Assembly (NCBI GenBank): GCA_017623055.1
Contig: JAGAPX010000024.1
Span: forward strand, 1 to 51,422
Reading direction: 5' to 3'
DNA length: 51,422 bases
Source: Phascolarctobacterium sp.
Lineage (GTDB): Bacteria > Bacillota > Negativicutes > Acidaminococcales > Acidaminococcaceae
The first letter of the stretch is position 1, and every line of letters begins with the position of its first letter. The notes below the pieces were generated by a model, which had not been told where the DNA came from, searched no databases, and worked only from the letters and a program-made list of their open reading frames with translations. Positions 38,542 to 43,905 of this stretch are shown here, piece by piece. A program made the position numbers and the translations under genes.

Positions 38542-38612
38542 GGTGGTGGATCCTTTGTGTTGTAGAATATTTTGTTGACGTCAAGAAAATGATAGAGTTT
38601 GTTGCTAAATTT

Positions 38613-38642
38613 ATTATATGGGGTTGAATGGTGGAATGTCAA
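38613..38642 (-). promoter_or_regulatory. Promoter of the small membrane protein gene
   Basis: On the minus strand TTGACA (38642-38637) and TATAAT (38618-38613), both perfect consensus, with an 18-base spacer. Confidence 0.75.
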
Positions 38643-38718
38643 ATGAAGTGAAATTTTAATCAACAAAATGAGATAATGTAGTATAATGGTATTAACTACT
38701 TGTTGAGAGGTGAAGATG

Positions 38719-39282
38719 ATGAAAAAAATTGTGTTACTAGTTTTGGGGTTGTTAATGTGGAGTTGTAATTGCTTAGCTGCAGGAACTACTGTTAGCGTTA
38801 TTGCAGATATACCAATGATGTTAAAAAATGATAAGGCTACTATAAATGAAATAGATAATAATGTTAGAAAAATTTTTAAATCATACAAGTTTGAAGTTAC
38901 GCCCAATATTGAAGAAGCTTTATTGCTAGTACGTCAATATAGACAGGATAATGGATTACTTGCTAAAAATGGTGGTGGAGATTTCCTTAAAACTAAAGAT
39001 GTACAAAATTTAGGAAAAATGTTTAAAACAGATTATGTGTTTCACATAGAAGCTTTTCCGCAAGCACTTAGAGGTAAGGCAAGCCTTTTTTCAGCTAGAG
39101 TTAAATATAATGCTATTTGTAATTTAAAAGTTATGAATGTTAGAACAGGTGAATTTGTTATAGTTAAACAATTTACCGAGGAAGGAGATACTGGCACAAG
39201 TTATGGGAAAATGGTTAAACATTTTTCTGAGTTTATACCCAATAGTCTCAATAACGCTAAGTTAGACGTGTCTGCTTTATAA
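38719..39282 (+). CDS. Secreted protein of unknown function
   Basis: A 187-aa protein with a signal peptide (KKIVLLVLGLLMWSCNCLAAG, cut near LAA-G). The mature domain begins with TTVSVIADIPMML and has mixed alpha/beta character with FKSYKFEVTPNIEEALLLVRQYRQDNG. It may belong to the periplasmic lipoprotein-like or TolB-N-like fold types, but I recognise no family. The start was taken as ATG 38719, with GAGAGG 8 bases upstream; ATG 38716 and GTG 38710 are alternatives. Base composition is clearly more AT-rich than the flanking housekeeping genes. A -10-like TATAAT lies at 38682-38687. Confidence 0.7.
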   Translation: MKKIVLLVLGLLMWSCNCLAAGTTVSVIADIPMMLKNDKATINEIDNNVRKIFKSYKFEVTPNIEEALLLVRQYRQDNGLLAKNGGGDFLKTKDVQNLGKMFKTDYVFHIEAFPQALRGKASLFSARVKYNAICNLKVMNVRTGEFVIVKQFTEEGDTGTSYGKMVKHFSEFIPNSLNNAKLDVSAL

Positions 39283-39292
39283 ATATTTTAAG

Positions 39293-39328
39293 AAAGGTAG
39301 TCAAGGACTAATCCCTGACTACTTTTTT
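39293..39328 (+). terminator. Terminator after the secreted-protein gene
   Basis: Stem GTAGTCA (39297-39303) / TGACTAC (39316-39322), extended by GG/CC pairs, followed by TTTTTT. Confidence 0.85.
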
Positions 39329-39425
39329 AGTATATATGAAATTTTAAATTTTAAAACTTTTCAGCTATAGAAATAGCAAGGTGTAATTTAAATAATGTTA
39401 TAATTAATATAATAGGGGGATAAAT

Positions 39426-41219
39426 ATGGATATTGAAGGATTGGCAGTTGCTGAAGTAGGTAGATATTTGTCTAGAAGTGATAGATTGCAAAAAAGTATT
39501 AACGAGAAAGATAAAATACCTTGTTGGGATGGTACGATTTATTTTAAGTATTATAACAAAGTAAATGAAGCGTTTAAAAAGTATAGTCATAATTTCGATA
39601 AAAAGGGTATTGTATGTGTTCCTGTTCAAGTTAAAGGTTCGACAAGTAACAATTATGACAGTAAAGAAACAATAAAATATCCAGTAGATGTTATTGATTT
39701 AGAAAACTATTTCAATAACTATGGTACAATTTATTTTGTTGTCTATATAGATGTTGTAAATAAGGAAGCAAAAGCAATATATTATGTTTCGTTGCTTCCT
39801 AAAATGATTTCGAAAATAATAAAAAATAAAAATGAGCAAAATACTATAAATATAACATTAAGAAGATTTCCATATGCTATTAAGGATATGGAAAGTATCA
39901 TTGAGAATTTTATTAGTCATCGAGAGAAACAATTAATTTTGGTAACAAACAAGGATTTAAATACGAGAAGGTTATTGGAAGAAAATAGGTTATCTGAAAT
40001 TACATTACCTTTAACTGGAGTGAAAAATGATTTGTCTAATTTAGAAGATGTAATTAGAAATCAAGATTTGTACTTATATGGTAGATTTGACAATCCAATA
40101 CCACTGACTGTGCCTTTGGAATGTATTGATACTACTGATAAAATAATTATAGAAGCTACTGGACCAGCGATGGTTAATATAGATAGAGAAATATATTATG
40201 ACCAAGCAGGAGTTGTTTTTGGGGAGAATGGTAGAATTGTAAAAATTGGAAAAAGCATACAATTGTCATTAAAAGACGAGAAGTTTAATTTTGAATTAAA
40301 AGGAACGTTAAAAGAGCGATTAAATGATTTACGATTCTTATTAAAGATTATAGAAACGCATACATTTGAGTATAATGGCGTAAAATTCAATGTAAGAAAT
40401 TTTGAAGAGTCTCAAGTTTTAGCAATAAGTAGGACTTTTAATTATTATAATAAAGCACTTTTGTTATTGGAAAAGTTAAATGTAAGTGAAGATTTAGAAT
40501 TAGATAATTTTACTGAGCAAGATGGAAAAACAATTGATGGACTAATAAAAGGTATTATTGACGGGGAAAGTTTTAATGACCTGGGATTTGACACGGAACA
40601 GAAATTGGTTGTAGCAAAAGTTGCTAATTTAGTTTTATTAGTTGTTCTAAAGAAGGTGTCTGAAGATACCTATATAATGATGAGAGTTGAAGATTTTGGG
40701 TTGGGGGCGTACAAAATTGATGGGCGTACTTTTTTTGCACCAATATTGTTTGCTGCTAATACTGATGTGATTTTACAATCTAATAATTTTAATTATGAAT
40801 ATTTAGAAAGTCAAATTAGTGAACTATCGTATTCAAAATTGATTGATGAAAATAGCGTTGTTTTCTTGTTGGAAATGTTGGCAGCATACGATAAGCGTCC
40901 AAATGTTAAATTGTTGAATGTAATAAAAACATTTTCGAAATGGCTCGTGGATTGTGACGAAAGTGATATACATCTGTTAAATGATTTACAAATAGTAAAA
41001 AGGGAACGCGAATTAAATTTAAAAGAAAAAACAATATTGTTCAATATGTATTGCAATGCTAGAAATGAAATGAATATACCAGTTTTATTTGCTTGTTCGG
41101 TTTTACTTGATTCTCAAGAAGATGCGCGTAACTATTATACTCAATTAAATGATGAACAAAAAAAGATTGTTAATGGTAGACCCATTATGATTTTTTATGA
41201 AGACATTGAACAAACTTAA
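39426..41219 (+). CDS. Large unknown protein with putative N-terminal restriction-endonuclease-like (DUF4365-type) domain
   Basis: A 597-aa protein with no signal peptide or membrane segment, very rich in Asn, Ile, Lys and Tyr. Residues 1-130 look like the DUF4365/PD-(D/E)XK class: a helix with AEVGRYL, then PCWDGTI (D35), a beta strand ending in PVQVKGS (Q68 and K70), VDVIDLENYFNNYGTIYFVVYID and a helix. A D...QxK arrangement is a usual nuclease active-site variant. Residues 130-597 match nothing I know: a beta-rich middle (about 215-300) and a helical C-terminus. AGGGGGA lies 5 bases before ATG 39426. Low GC and solitary placement between terminators suggest acquisition and possibly an anti-phage role; that role is inference. 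Confidence 0.75.
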   Translation: MDIEGLAVAEVGRYLSRSDRLQKSINEKDKIPCWDGTIYFKYYNKVNEAFKKYSHNFDKKGIVCVPVQVKGSTSNNYDSKETIKYPVDVIDLENYFNNYGTIYFVVYIDVVNKEAKAIYYVSLLPKMISKIIKNKNEQNTINITLRRFPYAIKDMESIIENFISHREKQLILVTNKDLNTRRLLEENRLSEITLPLTGVKNDLSNLEDVIRNQDLYLYGRFDNPIPLTVPLECIDTTDKIIIEATGPAMVNIDREIYYDQAGVVFGENGRIVKIGKSIQLSLKDEKFNFELKGTLKERLNDLRFLLKIIETHTFEYNGVKFNVRNFEESQVLAISRTFNYYNKALLLLEKLNVSEDLELDNFTEQDGKTIDGLIKGIIDGESFNDLGFDTEQKLVVAKVANLVLLVVLKKVSEDTYIMMRVEDFGLGAYKIDGRTFFAPILFAANTDVILQSNNFNYEYLESQISELSYSKLIDENSVVFLLEMLAAYDKRPNVKLLNVIKTFSKWLVDCDESDIHLLNDLQIVKRERELNLKEKTILFNMYCNARNEMNIPVLFACSVLLDSQEDARNYYTQLNDEQKKIVNGRPIMIFYEDIEQT

Positions 41220-41253
41220 GAATAATTTTCGTAATATGTTTTAAACAACAAAA

Positions 41254-41300
41254 CTCCGTCTAAACTAAATTAACACTTTAGCTTAGACGGAGCTTCTTTT
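41254..41300 (+). terminator. Terminator after the 597-aa protein gene
   Basis: Stem CTCCGTCTAA (41254-41263) / TTAGACGGAG (41283-41292), extended inward by CTAAA/TTTAG, with a T-rich tail. Its core is the same as the terminator at 42183. Confidence 0.85.
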
Positions 41301-41309
41301 ATAATTTAC

Positions 41310-41338
41310 TTGCTCTTATTGGACACCAATGCTATCAT
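41310..41338 (+). promoter_or_regulatory. Possible promoter of the three-gene cassette
   Basis: TTGCTC (41310-41315), 17-base spacer, TATCAT (41333-41338); moderate match only. Confidence 0.4.
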
Positions 41339-41350
41339 TTAATTGGAACT

Positions 41351-41363
41351 ATTCGTGACGAAT
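41351..41363. promoter_or_regulatory. 13-bp perfect palindrome, candidate autoregulatory operator
   Basis: ATTCGT-G-ACGAAT lies about 13 bases after the putative -10 box. The one-base centre is too tight for an RNA hairpin, so a DNA-binding site for a dimer is more likely. About 48 bases before the first small gene. Confidence 0.45.
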
Positions 41364-41411
41364 ATATTTTATGTATGAAGTTGTTTGATTCTATCGAAAG
41401 GAGATGTGCTT

Positions 41412-41681
41412 ATGGGTAATGAAGCTATTTTAAGTAGTGATAAAAAGTTTACTACATTTTCTTTTAATGGTCATAACATAAGATTTCGTACATCTCCTAG
41501 ATTAGAGAAATATACCAAAATTAAAGAATGGGATAATGGATATATTGTTGTTATGGCTAAATATGAAGGACACGATGAGGAAGAAGAATATATTGACTTG
41601 ATTCCTATTCTCGAAAATTTATGTTTTGATGTAGAGAAATTTTTGAAGCCAATTGAGAAAGTGAGGATTGTTTATGAATAA
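41412..41681 (+). CDS. Small conserved-looking protein, first of a three-gene cassette
   Basis: An 89-aa acidic protein. It opens with FTTFSFNGHNIRFRTSP, then IKEWDNGYIVVMAKYEG, an acidic run HDEEEEYIDLIPILENL, and ends in EKVRIVYE. The pattern suggests a small beta-rich fold with one helix. I believe similar proteins are found next to DUF4160-type genes in Clostridia (possibly the family called DUF7724), but that is from memory and not certain. ATG 41412 is 8 bases after AAAGGAG; the ATG at 41404 overlaps that site. It overlaps the next gene by 8 bases. Confidence 0.7.
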   Translation: MGNEAILSSDKKFTTFSFNGHNIRFRTSPRLEKYTKIKEWDNGYIVVMAKYEGHDEEEEYIDLIPILENLCFDVEKFLKPIEKVRIVYE

Positions 41682-41904
41682 GCTTGAAGCTATTGCTGAT
41701 TCCGCGGAGATGATTATAAACGGATATGCTTTCATCAAAGCTGGAAACAATGTTAAGGTTATAAATCTTAATAATCCTAATAAGGCTTTATTAATGGATA
41801 ATACTGGAGATGTATTGGAAACCAGTATGGATGATATTGAGATTGATATTGTTTTAGATTATTATCATCGTAACAAGAAATATATGGAGGTAGCATATGC
41901 CTAA
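41674..41904 (+). CDS. Small protein, second of a three-gene cassette
   Basis: A 76-aa protein with an N-terminal helix (LEAIADSAEMIING), a beta section (YAFIKAGNNVKVINLNN, KALLMDNTGDVLETSMDD) and a C-terminal helix (IDIVLDYYHRNKKYMEVAY). It resembles a small family that often sits beside DUF4160 genes (possibly DUF7723; recalled, unverified). ATG 41674 has GAGG 7 bases upstream. It overlaps both neighbours, so the three proteins are probably made in fixed ratio and may form a complex. Confidence 0.68.
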   Translation: MNKLEAIADSAEMIINGYAFIKAGNNVKVINLNNPNKALLMDNTGDVLETSMDDIEIDIVLDYYHRNKKYMEVAYA

Positions 41905-42175
41905 GTACTACGAATATAAAGTGTATGGGTATTACCTCTACTATACTTCTCACTGTGTAATCGAAGCTATGCACGTTCATGCAAGTGATAGAAAATTAAC
42001 TGAAGCTGGTTCGGCAAAATTTTTTGTACAGAGTAATGGTGAGACTGTAGTTGCAAATAAAGGCGTTCTAACAGAAAGAGAGTTAAAAGTTCTTAGAGAA
42101 TTTATTAAAGATAACTATCGTGAGATGTATTTAAAATGGGCTGAAAAAAGTGAAAAGGGATTTTTCGGCGAATAA
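41897..42175 (+). CDS. DUF4160-like protein, third of the cassette
   Basis: A 92-aa protein resembling DUF4160: an N-terminal YYEYKVYGYYLYYTSH, then CVIEAMHVHASDR (the family HxH-type region), SAKFFVQSNGETVVANKG, and the C-terminal helices LTERELKVLREFI and NYREMYLKWAE. DUF4160 proteins are commonly paired with DUF2442 proteins and suspected to be toxin-antitoxin-like; no biochemical role is established to my knowledge. GGAGG lies before ATG 41897. It overlaps the previous gene by 8 bases and ends at a terminator. Confidence 0.72.
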   Translation: MPKYYEYKVYGYYLYYTSHCVIEAMHVHASDRKLTEAGSAKFFVQSNGETVVANKGVLTERELKVLREFIKDNYREMYLKWAEKSEKGFFGE

Positions 42176-42182
42176 AAACTAA

Positions 42183-42218
42183 AACTCCGTCCATTAAATT
42201 TGGACGGAGTTCTCTTTT
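42183..42218. terminator. Bidirectional terminator after the cassette and the YeiH gene
   Basis: Perfect 10-base stem AACTCCGTCC / GGACGGAGTT with T-rich tails in both directions. It shares the CTCCGTC/GACGGAG core with the terminator at 41254. Confidence 0.88.
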
Positions 42219-42246
42219 TAATGATAGAAAATTTTAAAATGTTTTT

Positions 42247-43275
42247 TCACCAAATTCCCGTTACATATTGCACGATGAGTGCTGTGATGGTAATTCCCAT
42301 CCAGCAGCTAAAGCCTAAAAGGATGGGTTTGGTTCCTGATTTTACAAGCTTGACTACATCTGTATTCAAACCAATGGCTGTCATAGCCATAATGATGAAA
42401 AATTTACTAAGGTTTTTCATTGGTGCAAAAGTTTCAGCAGTTGCGCCGAAGCTCATGCAAATTGTGGTGAACACAGAAGCTAAAACGAAATACAGAATAA
42501 AGGTGGGGAAGGCATTTTTAAAACTAAAGGTGCTTTGTCCGCCGTTATTCTTTTTAGCGTAGAGCAAAGATAAAACTAAAGTGATGGGGATGATTGCCAA
42601 AGTTCTTGTCAATTTTACCATTACTGCTTTATCGAGAGTTGCAGTTCCTAAATTGTGCATTGCATCCCAAGTGGAAGCGGTAGCTGTAACTGCGGATGTG
42701 TCGTTAACCGCGGTACCGGCAAAAATGCCAAAGGCTTCGCCACTGGTGGTGTCAAATCCCAAAGCATTACCAAGCATAGGGAAGGTAAGTGCTGCAACTA
42801 CATTAAAAAGGAAGATTACAGAAATGGAAGAAGCCACTTCTTCATCACTTGCCTTTACTACAGGAGCAGTAGCTGCTACGGCGGAACCACCGCAAATGGA
42901 AGAACCTACGCCGATTAAGGCAGCAGTTTTATCGGGAATGTTACAAAACTTGTAGGCAAGGTAACCAATTAAAAGAGAGATGCCTATAGTTGAGATGATT
43001 ATTGGCATGGATTGAATACCTGTATTTACTACAACGTGTAAGTTTAAACCAAAGCCAAGTAAAATTACTGCGTACTGCAAAATCTTTTTAGAAGTAAAGG
43101 TGATGCCAGCTTTGAAAGTTTCTTTAAAAGGTAGAAAGCGTGTAATCACCATGCCTGCCAGAATACCAAAGACAGGACCGCCAATGAGGGGAAGTTTATT
43201 ACCTAAATATTGACAGGGTAATGCTATCAAGAGGCATAAAAGAAAACCTCTAATGTTTTTTTGAATGAAATCCAT
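42247..43275 (-). CDS. YeiH-family putative sulfate exporter (UPF0324)
   Basis: A 342-aa inner-membrane protein with about ten hydrophobic segments. Family hallmarks are LLGFGLNLHVV, GVGSSICGGSAVAATAPVVKASDEEVA and AGTAVNDTSAVTATAS. YeiH proteins are described as putative sulfate or sulfonate-related exporters, but the substrate is not firmly proven. ATG 43275 has AAAGGA upstream, within the end of the exonuclease gene; the 12-base gap suggests one transcript with it. Confidence 0.9.
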   Translation of the reverse strand: MDFIQKNIRGFLLCLLIALPCQYLGNKLPLIGGPVFGILAGMVITRFLPFKETFKAGITFTSKKILQYAVILLGFGLNLHVVVNTGIQSMPIIISTIGISLLIGYLAYKFCNIPDKTAALIGVGSSICGGSAVAATAPVVKASDEEVASSISVIFLFNVVAALTFPMLGNALGFDTTSGEAFGIFAGTAVNDTSAVTATASTWDAMHNLGTATLDKAVMVKLTRTLAIIPITLVLSLLYAKKNNGGQSTFSFKNAFPTFILYFVLASVFTTICMSFGATAETFAPMKNLSKFFIIMAMTAIGLNTDVVKLVKSGTKPILLGFSCWMGITITALIVQYVTGIW

Positions 43276-43287
43276 TTTGTGTCCTTT

Positions 43288-43905
43288 CTAAAACAAGCTT
43301 TCCATTACCGGTTCGCCTTCTGGTTTTTCAGTACATTGTTTTACGCCGCCTCGCCACATTCTGCCAAGTTCTAGGTTGTAATTACCGGCTAGCTGTTCAA
43401 AGTCCTGCGCACCACATTGCTGCATAATTTGGGCAACTGCTGTGGCACAAGCACGAGAATCTTCTAAAGCGTGGTGGTGTTTAAATTTAAAACCAACACT
43501 TTCTGCTACAGATTTTAAACCAAAGCTTTCTAAATGGGGCAGTGCTTTTTTAGCAAGCATCCAACTGCAGATGAAGTCAAACTCAGGTAGGGGAAGCTTC
43601 CAAGAATTAAGAGAGCTTTTTAAAACGCCCATGTCAAATTTGGCGAAGTGTGCTACAACTTGCTTGCCTTGTAAGCGTGGCAGAACTTCTTGCCAAATTT
43701 CGGGGAGAGTGGGTTCATCGGCAACCATTTCTTCGGTAATGCCGTGAATTTTTATATTGTCAGGGTGAAAATACAAATTTTTAGGACGAATGAGCTGGTA
43801 GTATTCGTCAACGATAACTCCGTCTTTGACGGTGACTAAGCCAATTGAGCAAGCGCTGTCGCTACTGCGATTGGCTGTTTCAAAATCTATGGCAACAAAT
43901 TCCAT
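43288..43905 (-). CDS. DnaQ-like 3'-5' exonuclease
   Basis: A 205-aa DEDDh exonuclease of the DNA polymerase III epsilon superfamily. Motif I is FVAIDFETAN (D7, E9), motif II is in VVAHFAKFDMGVLKSSL, and motif III is HHALEDSRA with the catalytic histidine. The C-terminal tail of about 40 residues (LELGRMWRGGVKQ) has no known domain. The start at 43905 is supported by GGAGGT; the longer frame to 43956 has no ribosome site. It is not fused to a polymerase, so it may act in repair or RNA/oligo turnover. Confidence 0.9.
   Translation of the reverse strand: MEFVAIDFETANRSSDSACSIGLVTVKDGVIVDEYYQLIRPKNLYFHPDNIKIHGITEEMVADEPTLPEIWQEVLPRLQGKQVVAHFAKFDMGVLKSSLNSWKLPLPEFDFICSWMLAKKALPHLESFGLKSVAESVGFKFKHHHALEDSRACATAVAQIMQQCGAQDFEQLAGNYNLELGRMWRGGVKQCTEKPEGEPVMESLF

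Follow-up and report, generated by a model that had tools for sequence, protein, structure and literature searches.

The candidate nuclease gene and its flanks

The window analysed here is a stretch of 51,422 nucleotides from a Phascolarctobacterium sp. contig (JAGAPX010000024.1). On its forward strand, positions 39426-41219 encode a 597-residue protein, a candidate defence nuclease with a DUF4365/DREN-like nuclease domain, a middle domain without a match and a TPR-like C-terminus. The reading frame is intact, begins with ATG and is preceded on the same strand by a Shine-Dalgarno-like ribosome-binding site (AGGGGG, 39414-39419). Homologues of 580 to 620 residues align over their full length at 20 to 30% identity with the same architecture, so the frame is not a chance one.

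The AT-richness and the isolation by terminators noted in the preliminary description were both borne out. The gene has a GC content of 28.3% (GC3 20.9%), compared with 44.5% GC for the window outside 38560-43290. Strong terminator hairpins with U-rich tails lie 5' (39290-39332; -18.2 kcal/mol, z -5.1) and 3' (41240-41305; -18.5 kcal/mol, z -7.0) of the gene, which is therefore most likely monocistronic.

Comparison with three congeners places the gene in a variable slot (38560-43290) that is absent or replaced in each of them. The flanks are common to all three, on the peptidase side up to about 38559 and on the other side from an exonuclease-like gene starting at 43291. In G323 the site is empty, with only 184 nt between the flanks. 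The slot of G322 contains an AbiEii-type toxin and its DUF6088 partner (L127, 2759-4310), together with a DUF7724/DUF7723/DUF4160 cassette 91% identical to that of the window (L127, 4681-5561) and without the nuclease gene. In G321 it is occupied by an AAA_14/DUF4143 ATPase (L128, 5190-6512). Stretches matching the downstream terminator (41240-41305) recur in the slot of two congeners. The slot amounts to a minor hotspot at which defence-like genes integrate. Its content changes and is partly defence-like, and in the congeners the slot is empty or its content swapped; the nuclease gene has therefore probably arrived recently, in agreement with the horizontal gain proposed at the outset.

The remainder of the slot contains other genes. 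The 190-residue product of 38710-39282, a predicted secreted protein or lipoprotein encoded by AT-rich DNA (31%), matches no known family. The three small genes at 41412-42175 (DUF7724, DUF7723 and DUF4160) form a separate cassette, possibly a conflict module of its own. A Cons_hypoth698 (YeiH-like) transporter gene (42247-43275) was found in none of the three congeners searched, and the variable slot therefore extends to about 43290.

A predicted DREN-like nuclease domain

The N-terminal domain (residues 1-175; 39426-39950, forward strand) was assigned to the PD-(D/E)XK nucleases. A DUF4365-like layout had been suspected from a WDG...QVKGS pattern, and WDG...VQVKGS is indeed present (D35-G36, Q68-V-K70), with Pfam DUF4365 (PF14280) scoring above its cut-off (29 bits against 24.3; E 1.3e-6; residues 52-155). 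The protein is the sole DUF4365 match in the host genome. Only six of 16 divergent family members match the model at E 0.1, which makes the family an outlying DUF4365 branch.

AlphaFold2 (AF2) modelling of the full-length protein, from a 62-row alignment of the window protein and related loci, gave a mean pLDDT of 90.0 and a pTM of 0.75, and the model contains a nuclease core, the feature for which structure prediction had been proposed. The best structural match found by VIA for residues 1-163 is the N-terminal domain of the SPARDA protein DREN-APAZ (9vx6_P; Z 12.9, 3.0 A over 132 residues), with further SPARDA chains at Z 12.7 (9qcc_M) and Z 12.3 (9jsz_J). Next come Hjc (Z 9.7), which is the second structural match, and DpnI (Z 8.2); RecU was also matched. 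The first five Foldseek matches are likewise SPARDA chains, only at E 2.6e-3 and weaker. A sequence-level search of the PDB did not match SPARDA, so the link is purely structural. Only about 12% of residues in the structurally aligned part are identical to DREN; hence the two proteins need not have substrate and activation in common. The viral structure library gave no match under E 0.001. A weak PDB match to peanut lectin, obtained with the N-terminal profile (E 0.015), was set aside as chance, because the fold is wrong and the catalytic residues are not preserved in it.

Conservation points to the active site. D29, D35, G36, Q68, K70, P230 and Q522 are invariant in all 72 near-full-length members, and E4, D489, N519, R526 and P586 are nearly so. 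The invariance of D29, D35 and G36 is, among the genome loci, partly by construction, these residues having been in the search pattern, while Q68, K70, Q522 and R526 lay outside it. All of D29, D35, G36, Q68 and K70 are kept in an alignment of 16 sequences (A2), whose plasmid members came from tblastn and were not selected by the pattern.

D35 (39528-39530, forward strand; 72/72, and 16/16 in A2) is the predicted metal-binding catalytic aspartate, the presumed counterpart of catalytic D41 in the NbaSPARDA DREN (PMC12205087). Q68-V69-K70 (39627-39635, forward strand) carries the predicted catalytic QxK, corresponding to Q60/K62 of NbaDREN (PMC12205087) and to Q62/K64, the pair assigned to the active site of TmuRE (PMC10810196). 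The equivalence follows from residue order and motif rather than from superposition, and residue by residue is presumed. In SPARDA, D41A and Q60A abolish the collateral nuclease and K62A impairs it; D41A also abolishes defence (PMC12205087). The pair D35/K70 had been correctly singled out as catalytic, and Q68 is to be added to it. The evidence from predicted fold and predicted active site that the N-terminus is a nuclease is strong.

The loop between D35 and Q68 (39549-39620) has 33 residues in the window protein and 23 in most members; the roughly ten extra residues are of low confidence in the AF2 model.

The middle and C-terminal parts

The middle region (residues 176-468; 39951-40829, forward strand) is beta-rich and then alpha/beta. 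Modelled alone, it gave a pLDDT of 90.6 and a pTM of 0.82, and its comparison with the PDB produced nothing convincing (VIA Z at most 4.2; lowest Foldseek E 0.089). With matches this weak its fold is left unnamed, from which novelty does not follow. The C-terminal module (residues 456-597; 40791-41216, forward strand) is all-helical and TPR-like in the AF2 model. Its eight helices (residues 457-597) match many TPR and other helical chains in VIA, the resemblance to TPR-like solenoids covering residues 465-597, at Z 7 to 10, scores that helical bundles readily attain. One helix bears the near-invariant motif N519-x-x-Q522-x-x-x-R526 (40980-41003, forward strand; N in 70, Q in 72 and R in 71 of 72 members).

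Distribution of the family

Neither genome nor viral contigs yielded a match when the window protein served as a single query. Relatives in these contigs were found only with alignments, and wide alignments yielded no usable search pattern. Distant full-length relatives were found by tblastn on plasmids and in one C. difficile phage, and alignment-based scans added 14 viral loci, among which some overlap, and 67 genome loci. The hosts include Bacillota, Bacteroidota, Actinomycetota, Spirochaetota, Pseudomonadota and others, besides plasmids and phages. Nearly all intact copies have 580 to 620 residues, and the layout is constant. The gene was found in none of 58 other genomes of the host's own family, and just one further genome among 299 sampled from the phylum has it.

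PADLOC-DB 2.0.0 assigned no family to the window protein, and 16 members gave isolated weak matches only; NCBIfam returned a meaningful score for no member. The family was not found under DUF4365 in the open literature, a search whose scope took in few subscription journals, and is apparently undescribed so far.

In a quick-method tree, a single clade holds most members linked to type III restriction genes, and a few lie outside it. The place of the window protein, in an open fork with most of these type III-linked members, is unsupported. Very similar members occur in metagenome-assembled genomes of Lachnospiraceae, Treponema and Gastranaerophilales (L085, L086 and L087), reflecting recent transfer or mis-binning. 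Several copies are broken by split frames (L006, 5968-7813; L021, 4866-6727; L083, L084 and L097) while intact relatives also exist, which suggests a cost or an on/off use of the gene.

Neighbourhoods of relatives

Genes were called and clustered at 81 loci, near-copies being left out where seen, and no universal partner gene was found across them. At eight loci (L042, L047, L050, L052, L053, L054, L064 and L068) the relative belongs to an apparent operon, whose genes are often only a few bases apart, comprising an HKD+Snf2 helicase, DUF4391, the relative itself, type III Mod and type III Res. Four further loci have part of this set. The gene families were checked on L050, and the other loci were joined to it by blastp clustering. 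The recurring five-gene set resembles an enlarged type III restriction system, of which some relatives are probably the accessory nuclease. A search for DUF4391 in the host's own genome found none, a weak result, as the search had no positive-control signal. The earlier suggestion of a single-gene defence system is thus not settled: the gene is solitary in the window, but its relatives at eight loci belong to a type III restriction operon.

The nearest neighbours at the other 69 loci include restriction genes (REase_I, L079; Specificity_I, L096; IIG, L026; McrC, L057) and other defence genes (GajB, L019; AbiEii, L090; AbiEi, L051; bSEFIR, L034; PDC-S32, L055). Vsr (L059), ZacA (L048), dGTPase (L080) and TIR (L033) were also found, an SduA_C protein lies nearby in L023, type I R and S genes lie near L025, and a giant DUF4011/helicase/MTES_1575 protein adjoins L036. 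At E 1e-15 the 127 nearest neighbours match 158 PADLOC families, compared with 19 for 127 control genes picked at arbitrary positions in seven genomes belonging to the same phylum; because PADLOC families overlap, and the best 25 of the 158 are listed, this is a contrast and not an exact rate. The 19 control families include no restriction, Abi or Gabija family.

The association with restriction genes raises the question of whether the protein is itself a restriction-type endonuclease, dependent on modification or sequence, whose middle and C-terminal parts read marks on DNA so that invader DNA is cut directly without abortive infection. The relatives within Mod/Res operons or beside other restriction genes would fit such an enzyme, as would DpnI and Hjc among the structural neighbours of the nuclease domain. 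It is nevertheless an unlikely explanation, since no DNA-reading domain (SRA, wHTH or TRD) was recognised, the nearest nuclease, DREN, is a non-specific effector, and the window copy has no adjoining methyltransferase.

Many loci have solely mobile-element or nondescript neighbours, as any mobile gene would show. Relatives on phage-plasmids, large plasmids and prophages adjoin integrases, XerS-like recombinases and relaxases, and this, with Hjc as the second structural match, is what would be expected of a nuclease serving mobile elements in recombination or in the processing of plasmid or phage DNA, like Hjc or RuvC-type resolvases. That role is quite improbable given that the neighbours of relatives are highly varied and rich in defence genes, that the TPR-like C-terminus is atypical of resolvases, and that the gene is here a lone chromosomal one in a slot that a congener uses for an AbiE-type toxin.

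The AbiEii-type pair in that congener and a weak Imm1-like match in the window's next cassette could hint at a toxin belonging to a toxin-antitoxin or competition system, controlled by an unrecognised antitoxin or neighbour rather than by phage sensing, which is very improbable because no small partner is conserved across the 81 loci except the type III operon genes, the next cassette is present in a congener lacking the nuclease gene, and two terminators flank the gene.

The contexts of homologues had been named as a check, and they proved to be defence and mobile-element neighbourhoods, not housekeeping ones. Taken together, context is strong evidence that the window gene is horizontally moved and defence-linked.

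Comparison with known systems

The closest known counterpart is the SPARDA DREN-APAZ (DUF4365-APAZ) protein, a defence effector paired with a short prokaryotic Argonaute (PMC12205087, PMC10810196), which has in common with the window protein an N-terminal DUF4365/DREN-type PD-(D/E)XK domain with D...QxK. The two differ in length, the solved SPARDA chains having about 400 residues and the window-protein family about 600. They also seem to differ in the C-terminal part of about 420 residues, which in the window protein gave no APAZ match in these searches and ends in the TPR-like module. VIA aligns SPARDA chains to residues 1-172 only, the middle part by itself gave no SPARDA match, and neither PADLOC nor Pfam matched APAZ in the family. 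No Piwi protein was found in the host genome by a search that gave signal in a control genome, and Piwi was absent from 32 of the 33 genomes of relatives searched, the one match lying elsewhere on the chromosome.

Shedu (SduA), a stand-alone PD-(D/E)XK nuclease joined to variable sensory modules, resembles the window protein in layout, with nuclease and sensor (here putative) in one protein. The Shedu nuclease domain is C-terminal (PF14082, SduA_C), whereas that of the window protein is N-terminal, and no Shedu model in PADLOC or Pfam matched the window protein.

The position of relatives between the HKD-Snf2 helicase/DUF4391 pair and type III Mod/Res at eight loci, as an extra nuclease in a restriction operon, recalls a published theme, the auxiliary or backup nuclease effectors that lie within BREX and BREX-related operons (PMC12839542). 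A type III set with DUF4391 and a protein of this family was not found described in the open literature searched.

A candidate sensor-effector nuclease

The window gene probably encodes a self-contained sensor-effector nuclease directed against phages or other mobile elements, solitary in this host. The features computed here comprise the nuclease fold, the catalytic residues, a single architecture, horizontal mobility, defence-rich neighbourhoods and the absence of an Argonaute partner. The nuclease identity is strongly indicated and a defence role is likely; for the trigger and mechanism DREN, which is activated by tetramerisation (PMC12205087), is the model from which anti-phage action, activation through assembly and unspecific cleavage are extrapolated. 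The C-terminal part (the middle domain and the TPR-like helices with N519/Q522/R526) may sense an infection signal or a partner, upon which the protein would assemble. Assembly would in turn allow the N-terminal DREN-like domain (D35, Q68 and K70) to cut nucleic acid with little sequence specificity, so that the infected cell would be killed or arrested, or the invader destroyed.

To our knowledge, DREN/DUF4365 nucleases have so far been known as effectors switched on by guide-loaded Argonautes. It is possible, although we put this forward tentatively, that the family is a widespread and undescribed defence family of Argonaute-free DREN nucleases, in which a new sensor (the middle domain without a known fold and the TPR-like N-Q-R site) replaces guide-RNA recognition, acting alone in some hosts and within a type III restriction operon in others. 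Direct testing of the window protein's role is feasible because it is small enough to express in the laboratory, has clear catalytic residues and its family occurs both alone and in restriction operons. A new phage signal might come to light through the unmatched candidate sensor part. If a single-chain sensor does stand in place of a guide system with the same active site, the DREN effector would be a portable module.
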